A stretch of DNA of 64,000 bases from NCBI GenBank assembly GCA_011032825.1, contig JAADJZ010000039.1, positions 1 to 64,000 on the forward strand. Reading direction: 5' to 3'. A program made the translations under genes and the position numbers. The stretch comes from Massariosphaeria phaeospora. Its lineage: Eukaryota > Ascomycota > Dothideomycetes > Pleosporales. Positions 20,761 through 54,968 of the stretch are shown here, piece after piece (the stretch's first letter is position 1; each line of letters opens with the position of its first letter). The notes beneath the pieces are model-generated. The model had not been told where the DNA came from, searched no databases, and worked only from the letters and a program-made list of their open reading frames with translations.

Positions 20761-21068
20761 TTGCACAAGCTTTAACTTTTGTTGTAAGCTAAGTTTCTAG
20801 TGCAACGCGTTTTTAGCGTTCTAGAAAGCTATTACGCTTCTTTACTTTCGCTTAGCGTTAAGCAGTTAACGCTATATTAATTAGCAACTTGTTAGAGAGT
20901 AAATTTTGCGCCTAGTTTGCGCAAGTTTAAATCTTTAATTGCCTTGTTGATTAGATTTATAGTAGTTGAGTAGTCGCGTGTTGAAGAAAGTAAGTTGGGA
21001 CGCAAGTTTGTTGTTGCGGAGCACGGGCCGACTCCGGGCACGGTGCGCACGGGCACGTTAGTACGTTA
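20761..21068. other. end of the RIP-affected block; pogo-like terminal remnant at the AT/GC junction
   Basis: Up to about 20,940 this looks like the remainder of the interrupted minus-strand pogo copy. From 20,950 the composition changes abruptly. The segment GTCGCGTGTTGAAG at about 20,971 closely resembles ATCGCGTGTTGAAG just upstream of the transposase start of the young pogo at 29,064-31,167. The GC-rich stretch to 21,068 ends in GTACGTTA, like a pogo terminus. No gene is visible. Confidence 0.4.
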
Positions 21069-21178
21069 ATGCACTAGTGTCAAAACTTGCACGTTTAGGT
21101 TCACATCGTCATCAATATCATCGCTATCTACGGCCCAACTTTCTGCCTACGCTTAGTTCTGCAGGAGTTGCCGTCGCT

Positions 21179-21575
21179 CTAATTGCTATCGTCCTTTGCG
21201 TGCCAGAGGTTCCCCACGACCTCATCAGAGTCGCTCCTCTTGTCATCTTCCTTTGCGTGCCAGAGGTTCCCAACAACTTCATCAGAGTCGCTTCTCTTGC
21301 TATCGTCCTTTGCATGCCAGAGGTTTCCGACGACTTCATCGGAATCGCTCCTCTTGCTATCGTCTTTTTCGTGCCAGAGGTTCCCAACAACCTCATCGGA
21401 ATCGCTCCTCTTGCTCATCTCGTCAACGCCTTGCAAGCTCTCTGATACTGTTCGTTAGCCATGGCCCAGAACCCATAGTAAACTGAACTGCAATCCGTCA
21501 AATGCACTTACTCTTCATCAGTGGAGCGGTCAGAGCGCCCGCCGCCATACTAAGAATTACCAACGAGAGCTTCAT
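21179..21575 (-). CDS. Kex2-processed repeat secreted peptide precursor (ustiloxin-type RiPP precursor candidate)
   Basis: Exons are 21,512-21,575 and 21,179-21,447, with a GTAAGT donor and an acceptor after AACAG. An alternative acceptor 6 bp further (21,441) is also in frame. The product is 110 aa. It begins with a signal peptide (MKLSLVILSMAAGALTA) and a short leader. Four 19-residue repeats follow, each starting with the dibasic site Lys-Arg: KR then SDSDEVVGNLWHAKDDS, with small variants (WHEKDDS, WHAKEDD). The repeats are exact 57-bp units at DNA level. Secretion signal plus tandem repeats at Kex2 sites is the architecture of fungal KEP proteins and of dikaritin precursors such as UstA. 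A UstYa-family gene is head-to-head with it. The cores contain Trp and His but no Tyr or Phe. Splicing is inferred; the alternative is an unmodified secreted repeat peptide. Confidence 0.75.
21202..21429. repeat. 4 x 57-bp tandem repeat coding the core peptides
   Basis: The anchor GCCAGAGGTT recurs at 21,202, 21,259, 21,316 and 21,373, giving an exact 57-bp period. The copies differ at few positions and stay in frame on the minus strand. Confidence 0.95.
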
Positions 21576-22510
21576 AGTATCTGTAGGAAGAGAACTTGTA
21601 AAGGCAGGCAGTGGTCGCTTGTATTCAAGGTAAGAGGAACTACTGTGTTGGTGAAGGAAGGAAGGAAGAGTTATGTTCAGCAATCTCAAATGCAGGTGGT
21701 TAAGCCGAGATACATATGTATCAACAAGCCACCCTTTAGAACTCTCCCGCTGGATTTCAGGCAACTGGCTCTGCCGAATGCGGCACATGCTACAGATGCT
21801 CTCAATCTTACCTAGTCCCCGCAACGGCTTTTGTACGCACCAACATGGATATTTGTCCAACTCTAGCCAGTAATCAAAGAACACAAGGTACGCCCTCAAA
21901 CTCCCTGAGGCAAAACCAACAAAGAACAAAAGCCGTCTTACCCGAGAGTCAACATGTTTCCTGTTTCTGGACTTCATGGGTTGCAATCACCTTGCAGTTT
22001 AATATATGCACATTCGTGTTTTGGGGGTGAGTTGTTAACCAGTACCCCAGTTAAGACCACCTAAACCAACCATGTAAGTTGCCACACGCCGCTCCACAGA
22101 CCACTTAACTTCTCTCCAAGATAGAGCCCCCAAAACAAAAGACCTCTTGTTCAAAATTCGACAGCTTCTTTCCTCTGGCGATGGGCATTCGATCAGGGCC
22201 AAAGGTAGCGTTAATACGTTAATATTGTAGGTAGGTGTTGCTGACAGGGATGCCCGTTGCTATTTCCTCTTTGGAGGTGCTTAGATGGTACATGCCAAGC
22301 ACTTATAGTAGTGCAAGCAAGTCTGATGATGTTGGATTCGATAGGGATGCACGGTGAACCTACCTACTATCGGCACTGGCCTTGCATGCATATGCATCGG
22401 ATACTTGGCAAACAGCTGCAGCAGTCTCGATCCGTAGCCCTGCAACGGCCTCCGCACATCATTCCTAGCATGTCCGCGTCAAACTGGGAATCGTGAACAT
22501 CTCGCATGTG

Positions 22511-22584
<74 letters not shown>

Positions 22585-22741
22585 GCTGCTGCTGCTGGTT
22601 GCAGATGGTCCCGCGAGTGCTATAGAGCGCAGGGCACAAGTTACGTGCTGCGTTGCTGCGTTGCTGGAACCACAACGCGGAAACAGCTACCACAGTTTTC
22701 CAGTTATTCCCCCTTCATCCCTTACCTCCCTCCGCACCACC
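21576..22741. promoter_or_regulatory. shared head-to-head promoter region of the precursor and UstYa genes
   Basis: The 1.17 kb between the two divergent start codons has no convincing gene; short open stretches lack supporting features. It holds a GAAG tract near 21,655 and a long trinucleotide run at 22,511-22,597. Divergent arrangement suggests co-regulation (inference). Confidence 0.5.
22511..22597. repeat. (CTA)n then (CTG)n microsatellite
   Basis: About 24 consecutive CTA units are followed by four CTG units, about 145 bp upstream of the UstYa start codon. Translated, it gives a spurious poly-Leu reading frame. Confidence 0.97.
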
Positions 22742-23924
22742 ATGGATTTAGATTTCTCACGCACCAATCTGAAAGGCGACGCCGCCTACGAGGAAAGCGC
22801 CCCCTTTCTCGCCAACGACGAGAAAGACATCCGCGGTCCAACAGCGTCAGCTCGGCGGTGGTTTCCCAGCCCGCTGAACATTGTGCTGCTCGTACTCCTT
22901 GTTTTTTCAAACGGTGCTTGGTGGACCAGCTGGAGGGGTTCCGCACAGCAAGCAGAACTAGAACTCGGCGCTTCTTGCGTGCGGCCCCAGCTTGTGTGGT
23001 GTAAGACAAACCAAATGGCCGGTGGACCGTTGCCAGGCAGATGAAATATCGCCTCGCGGTTGCAGCTGTCTGTGTAGAGACAGAAGCATCAACTAACGCC
23101 AACGCAGCACCGGGCACTGCGGCCATTGAATACGAGCGGGTGGTTTTGAACCGCTCCATCGAGTCGGAGAACGTGTTTGCCGGCAAGCGGACCCAAGCCA
23201 TGGACGACGCATGGGCAGAACTCATCAAGCGTATGTACCTTTCTCTTGTAGAAGCCGCTCCCTCCTCTCCTGGTGGCCAATCCAACTCAACCACATCGAA
23301 ACTTACACACGCTTTCCCTAGCAATGGCACTGAAGATATCAAACGACGAGCTGGCGCGCCTGGGAGAGACATCCATCTCTTTCGCAGACGGGTCCGGCTA
23401 CCTGGCGGAAATGGCCGTGTTCCACGAGCTGCACTGCGTGGTGCGTAGTTGTACCTTTCTCTCCCACTCACTGGCCAACCAACAGCAATGCAATGCCCAA
23501 CAAGAAAGCTAAGCTAAGCTAAGCTCACATCGTTGGGAACAGAAACACCTCCGCGAGCACATGACGCTGGATTTCCGCAACATGACGGACTACGAGTTGG
23601 ATTTTGAAAGGGGCCACGTAGGCACGTACCCAGGCTCCTCCCCTCCCACACATCTCTTCTCCTCTCTTCTCTTCTCGTACAGCAAACGACTGACTGACTG
23701 ACTGACTGACTGCCGCCGCTCCAGACCACTGCCTAGAGTATTTCCGCGAAGCCTCCATGTGCCGCGGCGACCCCACGCTAGCCTTCTTCACCTGGGACGC
23801 CGGGATCCCGAAATCCAAACGGGACACGACGAACGAGTGTGTCAAGTGGGACAAGCTGCGGGCGTTTGCCGAGTCGCGCATGGTGGATGTGTCGGATTAT
23901 AGGGTTTTGAATCGGGATGGATGA
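22742..23924 (+). CDS. UstYa/DUF3328 family oxidase
   Basis: Exons are 22,742-23,000, 23,108-23,230, 23,322-23,440, 23,543-23,621 and 23,725-23,924, giving 259 aa, the usual family length. After a cytosolic N-terminus there is one transmembrane helix (about residues 45-61), then a lumenal domain. Both family motifs HxxHC are present: HELHC at the end of exon 3, and HVDHC formed across the exon 4/5 junction. That junction uses a GC-AG intron (donor GCACGT); no GT donor preserves the frame and the motif. Members of this family oxidatively cyclise Kex2-released peptides in ustiloxin, phomopsin and asperipin pathways, and some act in other pathways. Here the divergent neighbour is a Kex2-repeat precursor, which strongly suggests a RiPP role. 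Introns 3 and 4 contain AAGCT and GACT microsatellites. Confidence 0.88.
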
Positions 23925-24245
23925 ATGGCTGAAGGTTACGCGAATCATCTGCTCTGGTCTATGAGCTGCAGACGGACTAAATAGTTTGTTTTTTGGCAGG
24001 AAGGGAGCGGAGGGGGTCTAGGGGCGTAAATAGAAGCTATCAGAAAGGAAAAATCACCCCCTTTACTTGGGTACAGTTGTGACAGCATATCAACTACTGC
24101 GTTATCAGTTAGCTTTATGGCTATTTTTGTAGTTCTATTTTAAAGACATCTGACCATGCAGACTATTACTATTAAACTCTCATATTTTGATGTAACGTGA
24201 ACCGTCCAAAATCCAGACGACTGCCACCTAAAAGCCGAGTTTCTT
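23925..24245. other. intergenic, 3' ends of the UstYa and peptidase genes
   Basis: Convergent 3' regions of 321 bp. No gene or repeat was seen. Confidence 0.7.
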
Positions 24246-25517
24246 TCAACACCTCTTGGGCTTCTTAGGCTTCTTACTCTTCGCAGGCTCAATTGCATGC
24301 AGGATAAGCTTCTTGTAGCCTTCGACTGCACTCTCCAGCTCGCCCACCGTGATGGACTCATCGGCGGTGTGGGCTCTCAGAATATCGCCAGGCCCATAGA
24401 GGTAGCGCGTGTGATTGCCCTGCAATCTGGGGATATCTGTCCCGTACGCCATGATATCCGTCTCGAATCCTACATGAGCGGTCAGCATTTCGCCTTTTCT
24501 TGTTTTCCAAACTCATCGCTTGAGCGGCGGCGAGGACTCACCTTCCACGTCGCAGTTGGTCTCGACGACTCCAAAGCCAAAGGGGCACTCGAGCGTGAAT
24601 GCCTCTGCATCAACGCTGGTCAGTACTTCCTGGAGCCGGTCCCGGACGATGAGGTGGCCGTTTGCTTGGGGTCCTAAGGCGACGCGGATTGCCAGAGATG
24701 CGTTCGCCGCAGCAGGGATAACATTAGGGGCGACGCCGCCTGCCATCAATCCTACGTTGACCGTGGTGTTGCCGTAGACCTCGCTGTTGCCGAGGTCAGC
24801 GTCGATGACCTTCACCAGGGCACGCATGAGCACCTCGTTGGCGCTCTTCCCAGACGCGGGATACCCGCTGTGGCCAGACCGGCCCTTTGCAAAGACGTTG
24901 CAGGCCATGCCTCCCTTGTGGCCACAGGCCAGGGTGCTGTTGGTAGGCTCGCCGAAGATGGCGACGTTGGGCCGGGTGCCGCGCTGAGCCATAACGTTGG
25001 AGAAGTGGATCATGCCGTCGCCATTTACCTCCTCGCCGACAACGAAGACGAGCATCACGTCGTCGCCGCTGACAGAGCCGGCGGCCAACAGCTCCAGCAC
25101 CGCCAGCGTCTGCGCGGCCACCGAGCCCTTTGCATCAGAGGTACCGCGGCCGGCGATGACTGTCTCGGCCGTTGGGGGCTCGGGTCCGGAGCGTGAGTAT
25201 GAAAAGTATGGCGGAACGACATCCATGTGTGTCGTTACCACGATGCGCGAGCGGTTGGACGCGCGCGGCTGCGGCCATGCGAGAACGTTGAACCGGTTTG
25301 ATGACGGCAGAAACTGGCGCTCTGTGGCGAGCCCCTGCTCTGTGAGGTAGTCAATCAGGAAGTTCCCGACAGCAGGCTCAGTCCCGGATATCGAGGGGAT
25401 CTCGACGATGGACTTGTGGAAAGAGAGGAGCTTGTCGCGGTACGAAGGAGTACTTTGCGCCCGTACGGCAACGGCCCCAAAGCTGCAGGAGAAGAGCAGG
25501 GCCGAGAGGTTCTTCAT
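24246..25517 (-). CDS. secreted M20 family metallopeptidase (Zn-dependent carboxypeptidase-like)
   Basis: Exons are 24,542-25,517 and 24,246-24,469 with a 72-nt intron (GTGAGT...GTAG), giving 399 aa. A signal peptide is visible (MKNLSALLFSCSFGAVAVRA). Metal and catalytic residues of the M20/ArgE-DapE-CPG2 family are all present: THMDVVP (metal His and catalytic Asp), GRGTSDAKGS (bridging Asp), GEEVNGDG (catalytic Glu pair), IFGEPT, and RAHTADE (C-terminal metal His). A dimerisation-domain GHSGYP motif lies between. The tail is Lys-rich (KSKKPKKPKRC), which is unusual. It lies tail-to-tail with the UstYa gene, so a role in trimming the neighbouring secreted peptide is possible, but M20 enzymes are also common in general peptide use. 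Confidence 0.9.
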
Positions 25518-26071
25518 GCTGAGAGGTACCTATTCGGACAGAACAAGAACTAAATGATGCGTGTTTCCGGCTTCTGGACAGATAACGATTCCTGTGTCAC
25601 AGGTAAGACCCTGGGCGTATTCTGGACGGGTGGGGCAGGTGAGAAGGGAATTGGCCAGGTAATATCGATTGTTTAAGTACCCCGACGCAGCCAAGTAGCC
25701 ATTCCCACCTCAACTCGTATATAATCGTGTTTATCTTCGCGCACTCGCAGACACCTACTGCACGCGGATCTGCCCGCATAATGTAAGAGCTTGGCAACAC
25801 CGCCAGAGCGGCACCTCGCCGAGGGGACCCCACGTTCACCACACTGGTGGTCCGAAAAAGTAATCCGTGGATGCAACCCAACAGGGCAAACAACCGGACA
25901 TTCGGGCTGCCGAAACACGTGCAGAACGGTCATTCCGTGGATGGGCCATATCCGATTCTGTGTTTCCAGTTGCCCTATAACACGCGCTGTAGCATATTTG
26001 AGAACTGCTAGACTAGCTGCGATTGCACACGATACCCGTGAACTGCTAGTCCCTCTTCCAGCCGCTTCGCC
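25518..26071. promoter_or_regulatory. divergent promoter region between peptidase and rhodopsin-domain genes
   Basis: 554 bp between two divergent starts. No further gene is supported; open stretches on both strands lack coding features. Confidence 0.5.
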
Positions 26072-27615
26072 ATGGCTCCGGTTTACTTCGAGACGGGCAA
26101 ACACCTTATCGCCGCCAGCCTCGCTTTGGCGGTCGTGGACGTCATCGCTGTGGCGAGCAAGTTTTGGGTGCGCCTCAGCTTCAAGCAGCCTCTGATGGCC
26201 GACGACTGGCTCCTGGTGCCTGCAACGGTACGTACCGATACTCAGACCATGACTCAACTACGACGCCTCGCTTGGCCGATGTGTAGTGTCTCTGTCATTG
26301 ACCATCTTGGCGGCCTGGGATGGGGACTGACAAACCACAGGCCTTGTCCATAGGCATCGGTGGAATGCTCACTTATGGCGCTTCTGAGGGCGCCCTCGGA
26401 GGCTCGATAAATGTTCCTCCTGGGGCAGCTGGTCGCGCCGAGCTGGAAATGGCCCAATTGACACTGGGAAGAAAGGTATGTGTGTCGAGACTTTTTGAAA
26501 GACGCTCAGTTGACCGTGACTGACAATGGGCGGGCACTCTGGCTAGATCCAATATCCTTTTCTCTTCCTGCACCCACTGGCTGTGGGTTTAGTTAGATGC
26601 AGTTTCCTCTTTCTGTACCGGCGCATCTTTTCCGTCAACAAGGCCCGCAAGCTCATCACCGTGTCCATATACGTCGTCGCGGCATGGACTGTGTCGTTTT
26701 TCTTCGCCGAGCTGTTCCAGTGCGGCGTTCATATCAGTTCAAACTGGGGCTCCGTCAGGCTTTTCGCAGCACATTGCCCTAATACGCTGTGGATATTGTT
26801 TATGAACTTCCTCACGAGCGCCATCCTTGACGTTTACATCCTTCTTTTGCCTATGCCATTTGTACGTCCCGCTCCTTTGCATTTCCTTCGGCAAACGCGA
26901 AACTGACCGAGCGTGTATTCGCAGATCTGGAAGTTGAGATTGAACACTACAAAGAAGATTGGTATAATGTCTATTTTCGTCGTAGGCTCTGCGTACGTCG
27001 ATATTTCTTAGACCCATAGAAACTGCCTGGCTGCTGATAGTTGCTAAATCTTTGGGAACAGCACGGTTGTAGCCTCTGTGCTTCGGCTCTCCTTCTTGGC
27101 TCCTCGTGTGTTCTCAACAACACAAGGCCCGCCCTTGACGTTTGAGCAGAGATCCGGTTCGTTCACCATGACTCTTAAGCCGCCTTAGACATCCATCTGA
27201 CACGCATCCAACAGCGAGTCTGTCCAGCACTCTCTACTGGGGGATGATAGAACTCGGCGTGGCCATATTCGTAGCCTGTCTTCCTACGGTGCAGAAGCTA
27301 CTCCGCTCGCAGGATGGCAAAGGACTGCTTTCTCGCATTGGCATGACCGGGGGATCGTCAAGATCAAAGAGCCACACGTCATCGTCGTCACAGACGCCAG
27401 GGTCCAAAAACACGAACAAGCCGCGCATCAACGTGGACCGTACGGTCGACATCGCATACGAGGACACGGAGACGGACAGCAGGCCGATATTGACTGGATT
27501 AGACTCTGTATGGACGCGACGCGGTAAGAAGAGCGAGGACAACTCGAGCGACATCGAATTGCAGTCAGGCCGGTCAAGGTCGTCGGACCCGGTCGAGACA
27601 CGGCCTGCGTACTGA
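26072..27615 (+). CDS. fungal rhodopsin-domain integral membrane protein (seven-helix, PTH11-like class)
   Basis: Six exons: 26,072-26,227, 26,341-26,475, 26,547-26,861, 26,925-26,992, 27,062-27,139 and 27,189-27,615, giving 392 aa. The N-terminus starts directly with a helix, without a CFEM domain. Hydrophobic segments follow the order of the fungal rhodopsin domain: LAVVDVIAV, then MADDWLLVPA (the family's D-DW motif), LVRCSFLFLYRRIF, VSFFFAELFQC, a PNTLWILF...ILDVYILLLPMPF helix, the KIGIMSIFVVGS helix, and YWGMIELGVAIFVACLP. A polar Ser-rich cytoplasmic tail of about 100 residues ends the protein. The last intron has a weak donor (GTTTGA) but is 49 nt long and keeps the frame. Relatives are called PTH11-like receptors; the ligand is unknown. 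Confidence 0.82.
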
Positions 27616-28408
27616 CGTGGTCTTCGGGCTGTTGCGCTGCTTGGTTCAGCTATTAATGCGAACAGGAGAGAGGCCGTATAGAAATAATCGAGTTTATAAC
27701 AGCCGCACCGTATACAAAGATGACAGCCGCACCGTATACAAAGATGACAGACACAACGGGGACGGGGAGCATGAGAAGGTGCAAAGAAAGTTTTGACTTT
27801 CCCACCATGACGTAATCGCTTCATGCCTCAACAGGTTAGAGAACTCAAACTAATCCTAGCAGTGCAAACTCCGTGCTTATTGTTAATTAGCTTCTTTGCG
27901 GTCTGCAATTGCAATCCCCTGAGCGGTAGCGAGGGGTGCGCTGCGCTAGTACGACGTGATGTGCTGGCTCCGCACCGTAGAAGAAACTTTCAACATACTA
28001 TATATATTGTCCGGTTGGCAAAACTGATACATACGACCATAGGAGATTGAGAACAACGCTTCCCGTTCGCTCAGCTGTATTTAAGCAGTCTACCGGCGGA
28101 TTAGTAGTTAGGTGGGTGACCACTAGCGAATACCCGCTGTTGTATGTTTTTTGGATTTCTTTTTGCTAGTCTGCTTTCTACTTCTTTTCCGCATCTTGGC
28201 TTCTCTTACTTGAGCCAAGTACTACAACAAACTAAAGTCTTAGCTTGTGCAAGACCTTTCCTTTTACATCTAAGCAAGTGGCGAGGTTACATAGTGCGGC
28301 ACAGGATGTTTGTGCGGCGCAGTTGGCAAACTCAGTCTCCCCAAACTTCTAGACATATTCACCTCTCGCTACATCTTCAGTAGCTCTTCTGAGATCCTTT
28401 CAAGCAGC
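27616..28408. other. intergenic region upstream of the beta-lactamase gene
   Basis: No gene is supported. It contains a 24-bp unit repeated twice at 27,699-27,746. A TATATA stretch occurs near 28,000. Confidence 0.5.
27699..27746. repeat. 2 x 24-bp tandem duplication
   Basis: Two identical adjacent copies of a unit beginning ACAGCCGCACCGTATACAAA. Confidence 0.95.
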
Positions 28409-31400
28409 ATGGCCTTATTTTCGGAGACCAAGGTCACCCAGCGGGATGAGCTGGAGCCGACTCCAGCGATATATTTTGAGCAGGCATACACCCAAGCCCT
28501 CGACAACAAGACCTTGCCGTAAGTCAGTCAGTCATTCAGCGCAGACACTCCGAGATTTTCCATTAACACTTCTCCGATCTCAGTGGATACGCACTCATTG
28601 CCGGGGATAAGGATGGTAAGTAAGATTGACGTTTGAAAGAATCCTCTACGCCTTGTAGTGTAGTGTAGTGTAGGCAAGCTCGACTAATCAACAACTCCCC
28701 TCACAGGCACCATCCTCTACTCCAAAGCCGACGGCGTCGCCTCGCTCAAAGCGAGCTCCAATCCGAATCCGCCCTTCCAACTCGACACCATCTGTGCCAT
28801 TGCGTCCATGACCAAGCTGCTCACATCCGTAGCGTGTCTCCAGGCCGTCGAAGCGGGGATCGTGGAACTGGATGCGTCGGTCGCGGAGATACTGCCGGAA
28901 GTGGGCATGTACGGTATTATAACGGGGTTTGATGAGGAGAAGAATGAGGGCGTGTTTGAGCGGTGTGAGAATGCTGTTACGTTGCGGTACGTGAGTAGGA
29001 GGAACCGACCACGCTCAGTTAGAACGCAAGCCTTGTTCCACGCTTGCGGGCAAGAAACAACTACAGTGTTGGCGCACGTGCCGACCGGAACGCGTGACGA
29101 TCGCCCCATCGAGATTATCACCACCACAAACATGAGGATGTAACAACAGCAGCAATAGCTATTATTGCAAGACCTTTTGGTGGATTGATACATTGATTAT
29201 AATAAACAATTTGTACTACTTAGATTATGTGTATCTAGTCGGCAGCTTGACAGCGCGGCCGCTGCGGGCAACCTTGGCTAGAACAGCAGGTACGACTTTA
29301 GCAGGTGCTGCAGCAGCACCAGAACGCTTCTGTCGCTTTGCCTTTAGAGTAGTTGTAGCCGAAGCTTTGCGCTTAGCTGTTTGGGAAGTTTGGATAGGTT
29401 TCTGAGTGTTTTGGAGCGCCTTTCGAGCTGCCGCAGAAGCTGCCTTTTCTGCCTTCTCCTTCTCACGCTCTTCTCGCTTTGCTGCAGTCGCTACACGCTT
29501 CTCCTCTTTAAGCTTCTTGTTGTATAAAGCGTTAGCAGCTTGGAGCTGCTTCATCTGAGCTTTTTGAAGTTTCTCCTCTTTAGCTAGTCGCTTGTTCGTG
29601 CGCTCACGTGCCTCACCCTCAGCCATCTTACGCGGTAACCAGAACACAGCTCTACCATGATACTCCTTCCTCTGCTGCAAGTCAAGGACCTTGCCCTTCT
29701 TATTGTGCTTCTTTTTAGTAGTAAGAGCCTCGCGTAGGCCCTCATTCTCATTAGTAAGAAGCTCGTTTTGGTTGGCCAAGTGGTGGATCATGGAGGACAC
29801 TTGTTTGAGATCAGACGACGACGTATCAGCCGCTGCTCGTAAGAGACAATCGGCCTCACGCCAGGTAGGGCTAGGCTTGTTTGCTGGCTTGTTTAGAGGC
29901 TTTGGCGGGAAGCGCTTCATGACTCTCTCTCGATCCATAGGCCATATACCGGTGGCAGCAAAAGACTGCAAGATCGTCTGCTTCTTGAAGCTTGCCTGCC
30001 AGGCGTTCCAGAACAACAAAAAGAAGTCGCCCTTCTTGATTGGGACTAGCCCTTGGCTGCGCTAGGTGTGTTCTGCAAGCTTTTTGGAGTAGGCCTTACT
30101 TAGCGGCCCGAAGCAAACTACATCTAGCGGCTGCAGCGTATGAGTACTATGAGGTGGAAATACAGCAACATAGATCTTGTGAGTAAGGCAGTAGTGTAAA
30201 AAGTCCTCCGTAAGGTGGCTGCTGTGGCCGTCGAGGATAAGTAAGCGCCAGTCTTTCCTATGCCGCGCTTTTTTCTTCGTGCAGCGGTCGAAAACCTGCT
30301 CTAACCAGGCCAATCCTACGTCATTATTCGTCCATCCAGATGGTGTTGAAGCCACAAAAACGTCGTGTACGCCGGGCTTGATATCAGCTACCCATGACGA
30401 TTGTAGAGTACAGTTTGCAGACTCGTAGATTAGGCCAGGCGGCAGCGCAGTCCCATCAGCGCAAACTGCAGCGACAGTTGTTATCCAGGTACGTGAGCCA
30501 TCTTGGAGGGCTGCAGTAACCTCACGCTTCTCCCATTGGGCCCTTGTGAAGGTCCTTTTCGATCGTCCGATTACACCTATCATGAAGCCTTTTTCGTCCA
30601 TATTGTAGCTATTCTCGGGCAGAATCTCATGCTCCTCCATCTTGCCGTGTAGCAGGTCAAAGTATAGCTTGTACTTGATATATGAGTCGGCTGTGTGGCG
30701 CGTAGCGTCCATGGCGGTGGTGTATTTTGAGATGAGCTCGTCCTCGTGGCGGTGCTTGAAGCGCGTCACCCAGGCCAAAGAAACGCGTTCGTGAGCTATC
30801 GTAGAGGCAAAATTTTGTATCATGGCTCGAGTAGGTGGTAGCCCACGCTTAGTCAAGTCTCTAATGTAGAGTACAAGCTCCTCCTCTTGTTGTGGCGTAA
30901 GTTTCTTCTGGTCGAAGATTTTAGCTGTTCTTGAGCCCTGACGGCCTTGGTGTCTTCGCGCCAACGTAACTCGATCTACGCCAAACCAGTCAGCATACTC
31001 CTGGTATACAAGATCATCTCCTAGAGCGCGCGATTTAATTGCTGCAATTGCTTCTTCAACTGGGGTCATGGTGGTAGAGTTATCGCGTGTTGAAGTTGGG
31101 GTGTCAGTGGCGTCGATTGAAGTTCGGCGGTCGGCACGCGTTCCGGTCGGCACGTGCGCCAACACGGTAACTAATCGATCAACCAGCCAACTCCTCTGCC
31201 ACACCTCCGGCCACGAATACGACTGGTTCTCCCCGCTCCTCGCGCAGTGGCGCGCCTCCCGCGGCGAACCCCCCTGGAGCGGTCCCACCGTCGCATCCAA
31301 GTCCACCCTCCCGCTACTTTTCGAGCCCGGCACAAGCTTTCGATATAGCGGCGGCCCCGACTGGGCCGGCAAGCTGCTCGAGCGCGCCACAGGCAAAACC

Positions 31401-32100
31401 CTCGAGCAGCTCATGCGCGAGAAAATCTTTGAACCCCTCGGCATCAGCGACATCACATTCTACCCCACCCCCGAAATGCAGCAGCGCGCCGCCACACTCA
31501 GCACGCTCAGCGCCACGGGCGCCGGGCCCGCGGTCGACGCGCCGGATTTCGACATGTTGTTCGGGGCGACGGAGTGTTTGGGTGGAGGCGGCGCGTTTGG
31601 CAGCGCGGCGGGGTATTTCACATTCCTACAGGCAGTGTTGCGGCGGGATCCCAAGCTGCTCACACCGGAATCGTACGATGAGCTGTTTAAGCCGCAGCTG
31701 GACCAACAATGTAAGAAGGCGTTCAACGAGTACATCCGCTCATCACCAGCACATACTCAGTATATCGGAATGGGTCTTCCGACAGATATTGAGAGGACGT
31801 GGAGCTTGGCCGGTATGCTGTGCGAGCAAGGCCAGGAAGGTGGGGTGGTGGAGGGGACGTATATGTGGGGGGGCGTGCCTAGTATGACGTGGGTAAGTGG
31901 CATTTATTGTTGAATGGAGAAGGAGTAAAACATGGAGCATGTTTTGTTGACTGACGATGTGGCAGTTTATGAACCCCAAGGCGGGGCTCTGTGGAGTGGC
32001 GTTTTGCCAGATCTTGCCGCCTATGTTGCCGGCGGTGTTGCGTCTGCATGACGGGTTTCGGAATGCCATGTTTGAGAGACATGATAAGGTGAACAAGTAA
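28409..32100 (+). CDS. serine beta-lactamase/transesterase-family protein, with a transposon in intron 3
   Basis: Exons are 28,409-28,518, 28,584-28,615, 28,707-28,986, 31,187-31,892 and 31,966-32,100, giving 420 aa. The catalytic SxxK is SMTK (in ASMTKLLTS). The second motif is YSG (FRYSGGPDW) and the third is WGG near the C-terminus. This matches the fungal esterase/transesterase branch (LovD- and EstB-like) rather than true antibiotic-degrading enzymes; LLCHTSG and LFEPGTSFRYSG are characteristic. No signal peptide is seen. Intron 3 spans 28,987-31,186 because a 2.1-kb pogo element sits in it. Its own splice sites (GTACGTGAG and CAACCAG with a CTAAT branch site) are intact, and the ancestral intron would be about 94 nt. 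The coding sequence is unbroken, so the gene may still work if the long intron is spliced. Confidence 0.87.
29064..31167 (-). mobile_element. pogo-type transposon, young, inside the beta-lactamase intron
   Basis: The ends are inverted repeats: CAGTGTTGGCGCACGTGCCG at 29,064, and on the complement CCGTGTTGGCGCACGTGCCG from 31,167, with more than 30 bp of good match. TA lies at 29,062-29,063 and 31,168-31,169. Length is 2,104 bp. The single transposase frame is antisense to the host gene. Base composition is normal and there is no RIP pattern, in sharp contrast to the related elements before 21 kb. Confidence 0.93.
29225..31069 (-). pseudogene. pogo/DDE_1 transposase with a single internal stop codon
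   Basis: From the ATG at 31,069 the frame runs 614 codons, broken only by one TAG at 30,062-30,064. Domains in order are an N-terminal HTH (DWFGVDRVTLARRHQGRQG), a CENP-B-type HTH (LAWVTRFKHRHEDELISKYT), then the DDE core with YNMDEKGFMIGVIG (first Asp), LLILDGHSSHLTEDF (second Asp) and LQPLDVVCFGPLSKAY (third Asp). The C-terminus is a Lys/Glu-rich coiled coil and a basic tail. The TAG could be a CAG hit by a C-to-T change. The frame continues unchanged after it, so only this change inactivates the enzyme. Confidence 0.9.
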
Positions 32101-43860: not shown

Positions 43861-46800
43861 TGCAGTTGCTATCAATCAAATCAGTCAGGCCGAGGCCTCT
43901 GGCCTGATTTGACTGGTGTTTTCAAGAGAGGTGAATTGAATTGATTGACTGACTAATCAACAACTCTCGGCCTGATTGAGATCGGATTGATAGACTGCAA
44001 ACAGATTGATAGACTGTAATCCAAATAGCGGAAATTGCCGGCAGATGGGAGGGAGGTTAGATTTGTATGAGATTGCCTAGGCGCTATTACCCCAGTCCCA
44101 TATACTGTACAATTGATCGATTGCCTCTTCAGTAAGCGGAGTTGTAGCTCTATCCTTGAAGCCAGCCCTGAGCCAGCATCGTACACAGTGAATTGCCGCG
44201 AGTAATTGAGGCGACAGAGCTCTACGCTTTGGCTCTAGGAGATCGCCGACCTCACTAAACATACGTTCACACTCACAGCTAGATGCCGGAATTGATAGTA
44301 CGTCAATAGCCAGCTGGCTGAGGTTGGGATAGAGCTGCTTCATGCCTATCCAATAGGCAATCGGGTCAATTGAATGGGGGTGATCCGATGGGAGATGAGG
44401 CTCTCGTCTCCAAAGCTCGTACTCGTCACTGCTATCGGCAACTGCTCTGCCTTGTACCGGATTTGTGAGCAGATCAATGCTTGCCTGTATATCTGATACC
44501 TTGACTTTCTTGCGTGGGCGTTCCAAATCTAGAGTCTCCTTCGGCTTGTACTCACTCCATAGCGCCTGAAAAGCAGCATCTGATAAGGCAATCCAGCCGG
44601 GTTGATCTGCCCATGAGTTTTGACAGTAGAACTTCGTGTTTGGGTGCAGTATTGTAGCGGCGTAGTACGCTGGTGAGTCATCAAGTTTCTCCTAGTACTT
44701 TTGAAGCTTTTGCCACGCTGCGCGTACGTTGATAGCTAGATGATCCTCTAGCGAGTCCGCCTGGTTGTAATTGACGCTCTCGTATTGCTGCGCAATCTGC
44801 TCGTAGGTGTTGAGTACGTACTCAAAGGTAGGGATAACGTCATGTAGCGCACCAAATCTTCCACTGTTGCCTCTGCTTTCAAGGCGCTTTGTAGCAACCT
44901 TCAACGGCTGTAGAACCTCAATGTACTGAGTAATAACACCCCAATCTGCTGCGCTCAATCCAGTTGACGTCATCCACGCCGGAGACTCAGCTATCTGATT
45001 CCCGCGGGCAGAGGCGTACGCAGCGGCCGTACGCGTATTCTCGATATGGTACTGTATGTAGGCATCAAGCGGATTCTTAAGCCTCTCGACGGCTCGCTCA
45101 AACGCAGAGCAGAAGGAGTTCCATCTAGTTACTACTGGCTTGATCGGCTCAATCTGTTTATATGGCTTCTGTTGAGCCTCTGCCTCCTTGCGTACAAAGC
45201 TGTACAGCAAATCGTACTGTTGAGGTGTTTTGATGTAGTGGAGAACATCTATGAGAACACCTAGCGGGCCATGTTTGCGCCAATCTAGCAACAATCTCTC
45301 CTCAAGCGCATGCTGAGTCTCCTCGTTTTCAAAGGCCTCTTTATTCACCCCAAACATGATTGTTTGGCCTATAAGATTGAGGGTGTGGGGGCCGCAGCGG
45401 AGTCGCCGGTGATCTGCATCAAAGCTATACACCTTCGCCAAATAATCCACGGCAGTGTTGTTATTGCCTGCGTTATCTAAAATAAAGTATCCTATCTTTT
45501 TAGAGTGAATATTGAAGCTCCGGAGAGTCTCCTGTATTACTAGAGCAATCTTTTCACCTGTGTGGGCACCAGATAGCTGTGGGAGAGAAATCGGGAGATC
45601 TTGGATGCGACCCGCCGAATCCGCGTAGTGAGCAACAACACCAAGATAGCCTTTCTTGCCTCCTTTTACAGTCCAGCCGTCAAACGATAGGTGTATTTTA
45701 CTCAGCGCGTTCGACAGGTCCTCTATTACTTGGGGTTGTAGGTGATTGAACAGTCGCATTGTATATCTAGCCACACTTTGATGATTCTTCCATAGCGCCC
45801 CGAGGGCCTCCGGATTAGCCATCTGCAGCAGATTCCTAAAAGCAGGCGTCTCAAACTCCCTCAGAGGGTGATTGTTTGCCACTAGCCACTCAATAGCTGC
45901 TATTCGAAACCTCTGTACGTCAAAGTTGCCCAGCGCGTTGCCTACTGCCTGCGGGATGACGATGCCGCTGTGTATGAGTTGCTGTATTGTACGCTGGCCA
46001 CCTGGCAAAGGTGCCTCCATCCGCTCGCCCGACGGCGTGAGGTTGTGGCCTCGTTTTTTGGCCTGTAGATGAGCTGCAGCAGATGAAGTTGATGTACTGA
46101 CGTCGCACAACCCACCGCCTCCCCGGTCTATCGTTTTATCTCTATGGCAGTACGCGCACACGAAAAATATCCGCTCAGGGGCCCGGCGGAGGCATACGCG
46201 ATAGCCATGACGATAAATCCACGACTTCCGGTGTTTCTGTGTACGCAGCAGCGCCATATAGTCGGGCAACCGATCCCAGTCAATCCCATTAGAGTTATCT
46301 TCAAATCGTGCGTCGAGAGCTTCGTCGGGGGCAGGCAATTCACCCTCTGTAGCGGATGGGGCGACTGAGGTTGCAGCGGGTGCAGGCGATGGATCACGGC
46401 GCTCACGCATCTCCACTTCGAAAGTTTGGGTACTCTGCGTATCGGCGGCAGCGCGCCCACGGCGGCGAGTGGGACGTTGGCTCATTGTAAATACGGCTAA
46501 CAAAGTGAATGGGGGCAATTGACAGTGATGGGCGAAAATTTGCGGGTGCAGAGTACTCAGGGGCGTGCGCTACACTAGTTGACTCGTACGCCTGCCGATC
46601 GGGGGCCAAAACAAACACCAGAAATCCTATCACGAACTCGCCATACGCCAATCTCTACAGCCTCAAAAACGGCCCCATCTGTACGAGTGCTATATGGGCC
46701 CTTTGGCTAACTCAGATCTCTGATAGAAAAAACAATCAATCCGTTTCTAACTTTCCAATCAGGCTGGCCATCACTGATTGATTTGACTGCAAAAAATCAA

Positions 46801-53354: not shown

Positions 53355-54968
53355 ATGACACGATGGGGTTCGCTACTCACGATGGTCCTGCTCAGCCTAT
53401 CTGGCATAGTCCTGGCACAGCAACAGCAAATGCCCGAGTGCGCTGTGAGTTGAGAAGTGTGTCGGCAAGAATAATGAAGAGACTAATGGCTACACAGGGC
53501 ATATGTCTTCAGTCAAGTCTTGAAGCGCAAACGGCATGCGCGCCCGACAACTTGCCATGTATCTGCACGAATGTACCGCTCAATAACGCCATTCAAGCCT
53601 GTGTGGGAAAATCTTGCACAGTCAAACAGGCCTTGGGTATGTCGCTCGAATTCGCTTCGTGTTCAGTTCGAACTTCCTCTAATACCCAAGCTTGTAGTGG
53701 CGTTGAACGTCACAAGCACTATGTGCGACCGGCCGATTCGCGACAGGACGCACATCACAAACGTCCTCATCGGCACCACAGGAGGTTTTGCACTCGTCGC
53801 TGTGATTTTGCGGACTTCGAACGCACTCTGGCTCGGATCGTTTCAGGCGGATGACGCATGCGCGCTGGCTGCAGGACTCTTTATGATCATCGACAACGCG
53901 GTCACCTTTCCCACTGGCCCGGCTGGTTTTGGGAAAGACGTTTGGACGGTGCCCTTCGAAAACATCACATACATTCTTAAAGTGCGATCTCCCTTCCCAC
54001 GGTACAAGCTCCGCGCTAACCGCCGCTCAGTTGATCTTCCTGATGCAAAACTTCTACTGGCCCGTCTCAACCCTCACCAAACTCTCCTTCCTCTTCTTCT
54101 ACCTGCGGATTTTTCCCGCGCAGAATGTGCGCCGTTACGTCTACGCCACTATGGCACTCACGGCGGCTTACTATCTCACCTTTCAATTCGGGAACCTCTT
54201 CTACTGCCGGCCGGTGTCCCTGGTGTGGAACGGCTGGGACGGTGAGCACGCCGGGTCCTGCGTAGACATTAACAAGTTTATGATCAGCGCCACGGCCGTC
54301 AATATCTTCATCGACGTCGTTATCATCATCCTCCCTATTCCACATCTGGTCTCACTAAACCTGAGCTGGCGCAAGAAAGTCGGGCTCATAGCTATGTTTT
54401 TGGTTGGTGGAGTAACTTTAGTGGTCAGCGTCCTGCGGATTCAAAGCATCCTGAACTATGCGAAGAGCCAGAACGGCACGTATGACAACGTTCCGGCTGG
54501 ATTTTGGAGCCTGGTCGAGGTCAATATTGGCGTCTTCTGCGTGTGCATGGTACGTCCCCTCCTCCTTTTTTTCCTCCCCCCCACTCCCCCCTCCACCCTC
54601 AATCCCACACTTCTAACACACACCTCCCCCCACAGCCCGCCATCCGCCGCATTCTCGCCTCTGCGCTCCCCCGCCTCTTCGCCAGCACAAACGCCTCCCG
54701 CGGCCGCCCCACCTACGTGCCCAGCACGAACCAGCACCGGCGCAAGAAAACGCCAACGTTTGGCGGCAGCCTGCTCAACGACACGGCGATTACGAAGACG
54801 GTGACGACTCACGTGCAGCGTGACGGCGACTGGCGCGAGGACGACGACCAGATCAACCTTGTGCAGGTTAGGGGCGGGAGGGGCATGTTGAAGGGGATTG
54901 AGGAGGAGAGGGGGAGGGGCGGCAGGGGCGGGAGTCGCAGTCGGAGTACGGGGAGGGGGGAGGTCTGA
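53355..54968 (+). CDS. CFEM-domain rhodopsin-type GPCR-like receptor (PTH11 class)
   Basis: Exons are 53,355-53,444, 53,498-53,636, 53,698-53,981, 54,031-54,549 and 54,636-54,968, giving 454 aa. A signal peptide (LLTMVLLSLSGIVLA) precedes an extracellular CFEM domain with eight cysteines: PECA, GICLQ, TACAPDNLPCICT, QACVGKSCT, and TMCD. A seven-helix fungal rhodopsin domain follows, with FQADDACALAAGLF, LTKLSFLFFYLRIFP, YLTFQFGNLFYCRPVSLVWNGWDG, FIDVVIIILPIPHL, KVGLIAMFLVGGVTLVVSVLRI and GFWSLVEVNIGVFCVCMPAIRR. The tail is Arg/Gly-rich. PTH11-like proteins sense surface cues in plant-pathogenic fungi; the ligand here is unknown. It is the CFEM-bearing counterpart of the protein at 26,072-27,615. 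Confidence 0.9.

Follow-up and report, generated by a model that had tools for sequence, protein, structure and literature searches.

A head-to-head repeat precursor and UstYa-family gene in Massariosphaeria phaeospora as candidate core genes of a fungal RiPP pathway

The precursor and UstYa genes

The stretch of DNA analysed here (the window) spans bases 1-64,000 of C33, a contig of 301,046 bases from Massariosphaeria phaeospora (Pleosporales), whose genome assembly holds 42.1 Mb in 51 contigs. It carries a two-exon gene for a repeat-containing precursor on the minus strand (21575-21179, with the ATG at 21575) and, head to head with it at a distance of about 1.2 kb, an intact five-exon gene on the plus strand (22742-23924) for a 259-residue protein of the UstYa (DUF3328) family. 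Judged from sequence, this pair is probably the two-gene core of a pathway for a ribosomally synthesised and post-translationally modified peptide (RiPP), in which the repeats would be released by Kex2 and the UstYa protein would oxidise their Trp-containing core.

The precursor gene contains four 57-nucleotide tandem repeats (21185-21412, minus strand), each encoding Lys-Arg (KR) and 17 further residues, a 19-residue unit (Table 1). Differences between the repeats are mostly synonymous, and third codon positions account for 10 of the 13 variable repeat columns (binomial p = 0.0016), which argues that the reading frame is coding and that selection acts on the peptide. The four Lys-Arg-opened repeats of the original prediction are thereby borne out. 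Their core reads VVGNLWHAK, and the whole precursor contains four Trp and four His with no Tyr, Phe or Cys, leaving Trp as its only aromatic residue besides His. Calculated masses are 937.4136 ([M+2H]2+) for SDSDEVVGNLWHAKDDS and 1023.5734 ([M+H]+) for VVGNLWHAK, with 936.4057 and 1021.5578, respectively, for the -2H forms.

An intron at 21448-21511 had been proposed for this gene. Its donor end is kept here and its acceptor leaves the frame open, but we prefer the acceptor at 21442 because it yields MKKSLQGVDEM, in agreement with MKKNLQDVDEM in the Lentithecium orthologue, and because it lies at a longer distance from the CTAAC site; the earlier acceptor was thus slightly misplaced. The deposited model, P0001 (62 amino acids), corresponds to an intron at 21300-21507 (208 nt, donor GTGCAT) and drops repeats 1 and 2. 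The choice of model bears on recognition of the gene as a Kex2-processed repeat protein (KEP), for which at least three tandem repeats of at least eight residues between KR, KK, RK or RR sites are expected: four such repeats are present in the model we favour, and only two in P0001 or in the deposited relatives P0002 and P0003. The 2020 KEP survey demanded at least three repeats, so these two-repeat models place the family in a blind spot of that survey.

The divergently oriented gene likewise proved to encode the expected DUF3328 protein with both HxxHC motifs. Our model agrees with the deposited protein P0004 at every one of its 259 residues (100% identity) and matches PF11807 with E = 1.8e-42 (146.1 bits against a curated cut-off of 25). 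The second motif, HVDHC, is readable only with GC-AG splicing of intron 4, a splice implied by the identical deposited protein; in the paralogue described below from contig C45, a GT-AG intron is modelled at the same position. A protein search gave 18 proteins including that of the window, of which 17 were aligned and P0021, a 159-residue fragment, was omitted. The His and Cys residues of both motifs, and all five residues of HELHC, do not vary among the 17 aligned sequences, one of which is the window's. The protein has no relative in the PDB by sequence at E <= 1 and matched no NCBIfam model, and the AlphaFold2 prediction from 17 sequences reached a mean predicted local distance difference test score (pLDDT) of 54, leaving the model unsuited to a fold search. 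PF11807 matches C33 twice, each time in an exon of this gene, with no second UstYa gene on the contig, and the 29 tyrosinase matches of the genome all fall on other contigs (counts from genome searches, here and below, are lower bounds).

Table 1. Features of the precursor and UstYa genes in the window
Feature	Positions	Strand	Remarks
Precursor exon 1	21512-21575	-	MKLSLVILSMAAGALTAPLMK..., signal-peptide-like by eye from the sequence
Precursor intron	21442-21511	-	GT-AG, 70 nt, CTAAC branch-like site; sequence of Lentithecium P0002 in line
Precursor exon 2	21179-21441	-	four repeats and stop
Repeat 1	21356-21412	-	KRSDSDEVVGNLWHEKDDS
Repeat 2	21299-21355	-	KRSDSDEVVGNLWHAKDDS
Repeat 3	21242-21298	-	KRSDSDEVVGNLWHAKEDD
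Repeat 4	21185-21241	-	KRSDSDEVVGNLWHAKDDS, then N and stop
Divergent intergenic region	21576-22741 (1166 bp)	.	holds a (TAC)n run near 22511-22584
UstYa exon 1	22742-23000	+	hydrophobic (transmembrane-like) segment
UstYa exon 2	23108-23230	+	
UstYa exon 3	23322-23440	+	first motif HELHC (H162 E163 L164 H165 C166)
UstYa exon 4	23543-23621	+	start of second motif (H192)
UstYa intron 4	23622-23724	+	GC-AG, splits second HxxHC motif
UstYa exon 5	23725-23924	+	remainder of second motif (H195 C196), C-terminus

Relatives in other fungi and a second pair in the same genome

Database protein searches with the precursor, at E <= 1 and at E <= 10, returned four proteins: its own deposited model P0001, P0002 from Lentithecium fluviatile, P0003 from Parastagonospora nodorum and P0022 from Hypoxylon texense. 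P0002 and P0003 are annotated orthologous precursors with two cores each, sharing VGNLWHAKDD with the window; their core residues are identical at 10-11 of 11 positions, 17 of 21 (Lentithecium) and 14 of 21 (Parastagonospora) leader residues agree with the window, and both keep the KR ahead of the second core. The Hypoxylon protein carries three copies of DLV[HK]NSWSAR. Common to all precursors found is a core of the form N-x-W-x-A-[KR], in which Trp and the Lys or Arg three residues on are kept in all complete copies from the window, its relatives, C45 and Hypoxylon; the Ala is replaced by Glu in repeat 1 of the window.

In Lentithecium, P0002 and the UstYa protein P0005, which is 81% identical to that of the window, are each encoded on one contig of 407,925 bases, and from this equal size we infer that the two genes sit on the same contig. 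In a tree of the enzymes, the window protein groups with Lentithecium a, Corynespora, Parastagonospora and Periconia at 100/100, and this Pleosporales group joins C45-2, Lentithecium b, Melanomma and ten Xylariales/Apiospora rows at 96/95. Half of the inner branches (9 of 18) are open, and long branches lead to C45-2 and to the three partial outgroup rows, so exact places in the tree are unsure.

A paralogous pair is present in the M. phaeospora genome itself. The window precursor matches one other locus, C45:1371489-1371725 (minus strand; E 2.8e-11, 39% identity), which contains three complete copies of the core DEL[IV]KNSWSARD, whose LVKNSWSARD is related to the window core and whose NSWSAR recurs in the Hypoxylon precursor, and is arranged head to head with two UstYa genes (C45:1371489-1375417). 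The second of these, UstYa-2 (exons 1374421-1375417), falls in the clade of the window enzyme. When a profile of the 17 aligned sequences was scored on frames of at least 30 residues, the window exon 5 frame reached 126.9 bits and two UstYa-2 frames reached 105.0 and 99.6 bits, with no frame of the other UstYa genes exceeding 43.6 bits across the 14 places matched by PF11807 in the genome; the profile includes the window protein, which favours the window's own score and not that of UstYa-2. Taken together, the precursor matches and clade scores indicate that the only two N-x-W-x-A-[KR] precursors found adjoin the only two UstYa genes of this clade found. The proposed pairing of a Kex2-type repeat precursor with a UstYa-family enzyme thus gains support both from this paralogous pair and from the equal-size contigs in Lentithecium. 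A further motif match, EVVANCWQAR on C24, was rejected as chance, being a single copy with no surrounding repeats.

PF11807 matches in the genome fall into 14 places, 3 of which have a convincing repeat precursor: the window, C45 and C49. The underlying single-frame repeat scan took in about 10 kb per side at ten of these places, one of which, C45:7846, had about 8 kb covered on one side with over half of that masked; it also took in about 4-6 kb at C2 and at C12:2095648, the window, and, around the main C45 genes, about 5.8 kb to the left and 1.5 kb to the right. Low-complexity frames, among them proline/alanine repeats near C18 and glycine/lysine repeats near C5, were left uncounted on inspection by eye. 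At C49:61496-61864 the precursor has a Tyr-containing core, YDGIGRGY, between KR sites; it is flanked by two UstYa genes and a tyrosinase match lies about 6 kb off. The region C49:60859-68410 is a more classical dikaritin-like cluster.

Genomic setting of the pair

The first 20,900 bases of the window are AT-rich, with a TpA/ApT ratio of 2.18 and a (CpA+TpG)/(ApC+GpT) ratio of 0.64, compared with 0.94 and 1.14 at 20,900-32,000. This block at the contig start bears a strong signature of repeat-induced point mutation and ends just left of the precursor, and the dinucleotide contrast places the pair just inside a gene-bearing block, adjoining the one with this signature. The intergenic region between the two genes is a possible shared promoter.

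Directly after the UstYa gene lies a gene for an M20 (ArgE/DapE-like) peptidase with a signal-peptide-like start (24246-25517, minus strand; Pfam match on 24513-25529, last exon at 24246-24512 placed by eye). Trimming of the peptide by such an enzyme is conceivable, but a role as a constant member of the pathway is not supported, because none of the seven M20_dimer matches in the genome lies on C45, which carries the paralogous pair. Two frames with a fungal rhodopsin domain (PF20684) occur on the plus strand at 26547-26906, about 2.6 kb past the UstYa gene, and at 53887-54804. Transposase frames near the pair are of Tc5/pogo type (DDE_1, HTH_Tnp_Tc5) and hAT type (30062-31459 and 44077-46569, both minus strand). 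The Tc5-type transposase is flanked by beta-lactamase-fold frames (PF00144; 28688-31913, plus strand) covering profile positions 25-85 in the early part and 96-252 in the later, as if one gene had been interrupted by the transposase. Among eight frames scanned with Pfam at 24-32 kb, a subset of those there, no reductase or transporter appeared, and the only methyltransferase-related match among the scanned window frames was methionine-synthase-like (PF01717, 39196-40341), no search having been aimed at methyltransferases.

Pathway, chemistry and alternatives

In regard to known systems, the pair shares with the ustiloxin and phomopsin pathways (dikaritins) a precursor apparently targeted to the endoplasmic reticulum (ER), repeated cores separated by Lys-Arg and an adjoining UstYa gene with two HxxHC motifs. 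The core motif of ustiloxin and phomopsin is EDYXI (PMC6339444, section 10), whereas the window core has Trp and His, with neither Tyr nor that motif; the window contig offers one UstYa gene and no tyrosinase match, and the window-type core is almost invariant across the three species seen. Because the precursor has no Tyr and C33 no tyrosinase match, the label "ustiloxin-type" of the original prediction suits the architecture and not Tyr chemistry. A broad definition of dikaritins takes DUF3328 as the class-defining enzyme (PMC12048977), and the window pair, a repeat precursor with a DUF3328 enzyme, falls within it. The narrow definition (ustiloxin/phomopsin, five gene kinds) entails a tyrosinase, a Tyr-based ether macrocycle and multiple DUF3328 genes, all of which lack a counterpart here. 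It further lists a methyltransferase and a peptidase or transporter, and on the latter the M20 frame at 24513-25517 would bear, with the reservation given above. The asperipin-2a pathway (aprA, aprY, aprT, aprR) is similarly small, its four genes including one UstYa homologue but no tyrosinase (PMC6514808); its core, FYYTGY, is linked by Tyr ethers, whereas the window precursor has no Tyr. Victorin is likewise a KEP-type RiPP of a Dothideomycete; it is cyclised via Phe and Leu (PMC9233826), unlike the Phe-free precursor of the window.

The closest general likeness is to the KEPs near DUF3328 genes in the 2019 and 2020 surveys, which also combine a signal-peptide-like start, repeats between dibasic sites and a DUF3328 neighbour. 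DUF3328 gene counts are highest at the position adjoining a KEP gene (PMC7329392, section 7), and 1758 of 7878 KEPs have such a neighbour (PMC7329392). Tyr occurs in 65.6% of the repeat sequences near DUF3328 genes (PMC7329392), so about a third of such repeats are Tyr-free; among the Tyr-free types described in the same source are G-3 and G-8, with His-His, and P-3, with Trp and Pro. Type P-3 occurs in Fonsecaea, Cladophialophora and three basidiomycete genera (PMC7329392), none of which is among the genera here, and the window core has no Pro. Since Tyr-free precursors, one of them of a Trp type, are already catalogued, what is new is the N-x-W-x-A-[KR] core with its own enzyme clade and with relatives in two classes. 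The architecture of the pair is already known, and the VVGNLWHAK-type core was not found in print: it is absent from the motifs spelled out in section 10 of PMC6339444 (EDYXI, DADAATXYV[A/V]D, YVW[G/A][G/S], SPPHKT, QKLKVD and XSDW, motif 1 being given only in a figure), and core strings such as NLWHAK and NSWSAR, like the deposited locus tags, led to nothing relevant in literature text, a scope outside which lie the supplementary tables of the KEP surveys, which may already include the family. For P. nodorum, the genome paper on Sn15 names one UstYa-like gene, located on an accessory chromosome, and nothing there ties it to the present family (PMC8146201).

In the pathway we favour, the precursor would enter the ER and Kex2 would cut after each Lys-Arg in the Golgi, so that each repeat would yield a peptide of 17 residues built around VVGNLWHAK, with probable trimming of its acidic flanks. 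This follows the design of known KEP/UstYa pathways, where repeats freed by Kex2 undergo oxidation by UstYa enzymes (PMC10512285, PMC12048977, PMC9233826, PMC6514808). A membrane-anchored UstYa protein would then oxidise the core, most likely at Trp, since His is its only other aromatic residue. A precursor without Tyr, Phe or Cys rules out Tyr ethers and Phe links; oxidation of Trp might instead take the form of a side-chain cross-link or of hydroxylation or desaturation, and a cyclic product is one possibility.

Several observations weigh against this pathway. The UstYa-pathway cross-links described in PMC7329392, PMC9233826 and PMC6514808 start from Tyr or Phe, of which the window precursor has none, and those accounts name no product of a Tyr-free precursor near DUF3328 genes; Trp is not raised in KEPs near such genes (20.5% vs 24.5%; PMC7329392, section 7). 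C33 has no tyrosinase match and a single UstYa gene, and the deposited precursor model carries just two repeats. At C45 the fourth repeat is cut by an in-frame TGA at the Trp codon and no dibasic site was read between repeats, and the Hypoxylon precursor has a single dibasic site (KK). The anticipated linkage in relatives holds in Lentithecium as far as contigs of equal size indicate, but Corynespora (75%) and Periconia (58%) returned the enzyme and no precursor in a protein search that short unannotated genes would escape, and linkage in P. nodorum is left undecided by longest contigs of 1,896,746 and 2,146,107 bases.

The main rival is a linear, hormone-like KEP signal, in which the Kex2-cut repeats act unmodified and the neighbouring UstYa protein has another substrate. 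The core is nearly invariant between species, at 10-11 of 11 residues. Such constancy would suit a signal better than a toxin. In addition, a DUF3328 neighbour is missing for 6120 of 7878 KEPs, and the KEPs that do have one show no enrichment of Trp (PMC7329392). We nevertheless consider this explanation unlikely, given that the two W-core precursors found in the genome each stand next to a UstYa gene of one clade, for which no further member was found there. The core VVGNLWHAK also rules out that the signal is the alpha pheromone of Pleosporales, whose ending is PYG[L/M]P[I/V]G (PMC6339444). Lower still is the probability that the gene encodes an acidic secreted repeat protein that stays unprocessed, its one KR per repeat being coincidental. 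A duplicated unit with one chance KR would look alike, and the dibasic sites missing between the C45 repeats and reduced to one in Hypoxylon fit such a protein; it is made improbable by the KR kept before the second core in Lentithecium and Parastagonospora, by the mostly synonymous repeat differences and by the pairing with UstYa. A classical Tyr-ether dikaritin of the ustiloxin/phomopsin type would account for a Kex2 repeat precursor beside a UstYa gene, but it is already contradicted by a core without Tyr or Phe and by the lack of a tyrosinase match on C33; with a better candidate at C49, which combines a Tyr core, two UstYa genes and a tyrosinase match, we regard it as scarcely credible for the window.

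The modified, Kex2-released peptide proposed at the outset would not stand alone. Both genes have relatives in other fungi, which suggests a small modified-peptide family. A bolder proposal, which we advance tentatively and hold to be somewhat doubtful, is that these loci form a separate RiPP family across Dothideomycetes and Sordariomycetes, defined by an N-x-W-x-A-[KR] core and its own UstYa clade, with Trp rather than Tyr cross-linked or oxidised (for example to the Lys or Arg three residues on), and that a core so nearly invariant speaks for a part in signalling and against a varying toxin.

In a review of 2022, no more than five KEP/UstYa products are listed (PMC10512285). If this UstYa clade does act on a Tyr-free Trp core, the substrate range of UstYa enzymes would become directly testable, and the two W-core pairs of M. 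phaeospora, set against its one Tyr-core cluster with a tyrosinase match, provide a ready control within a single genome.

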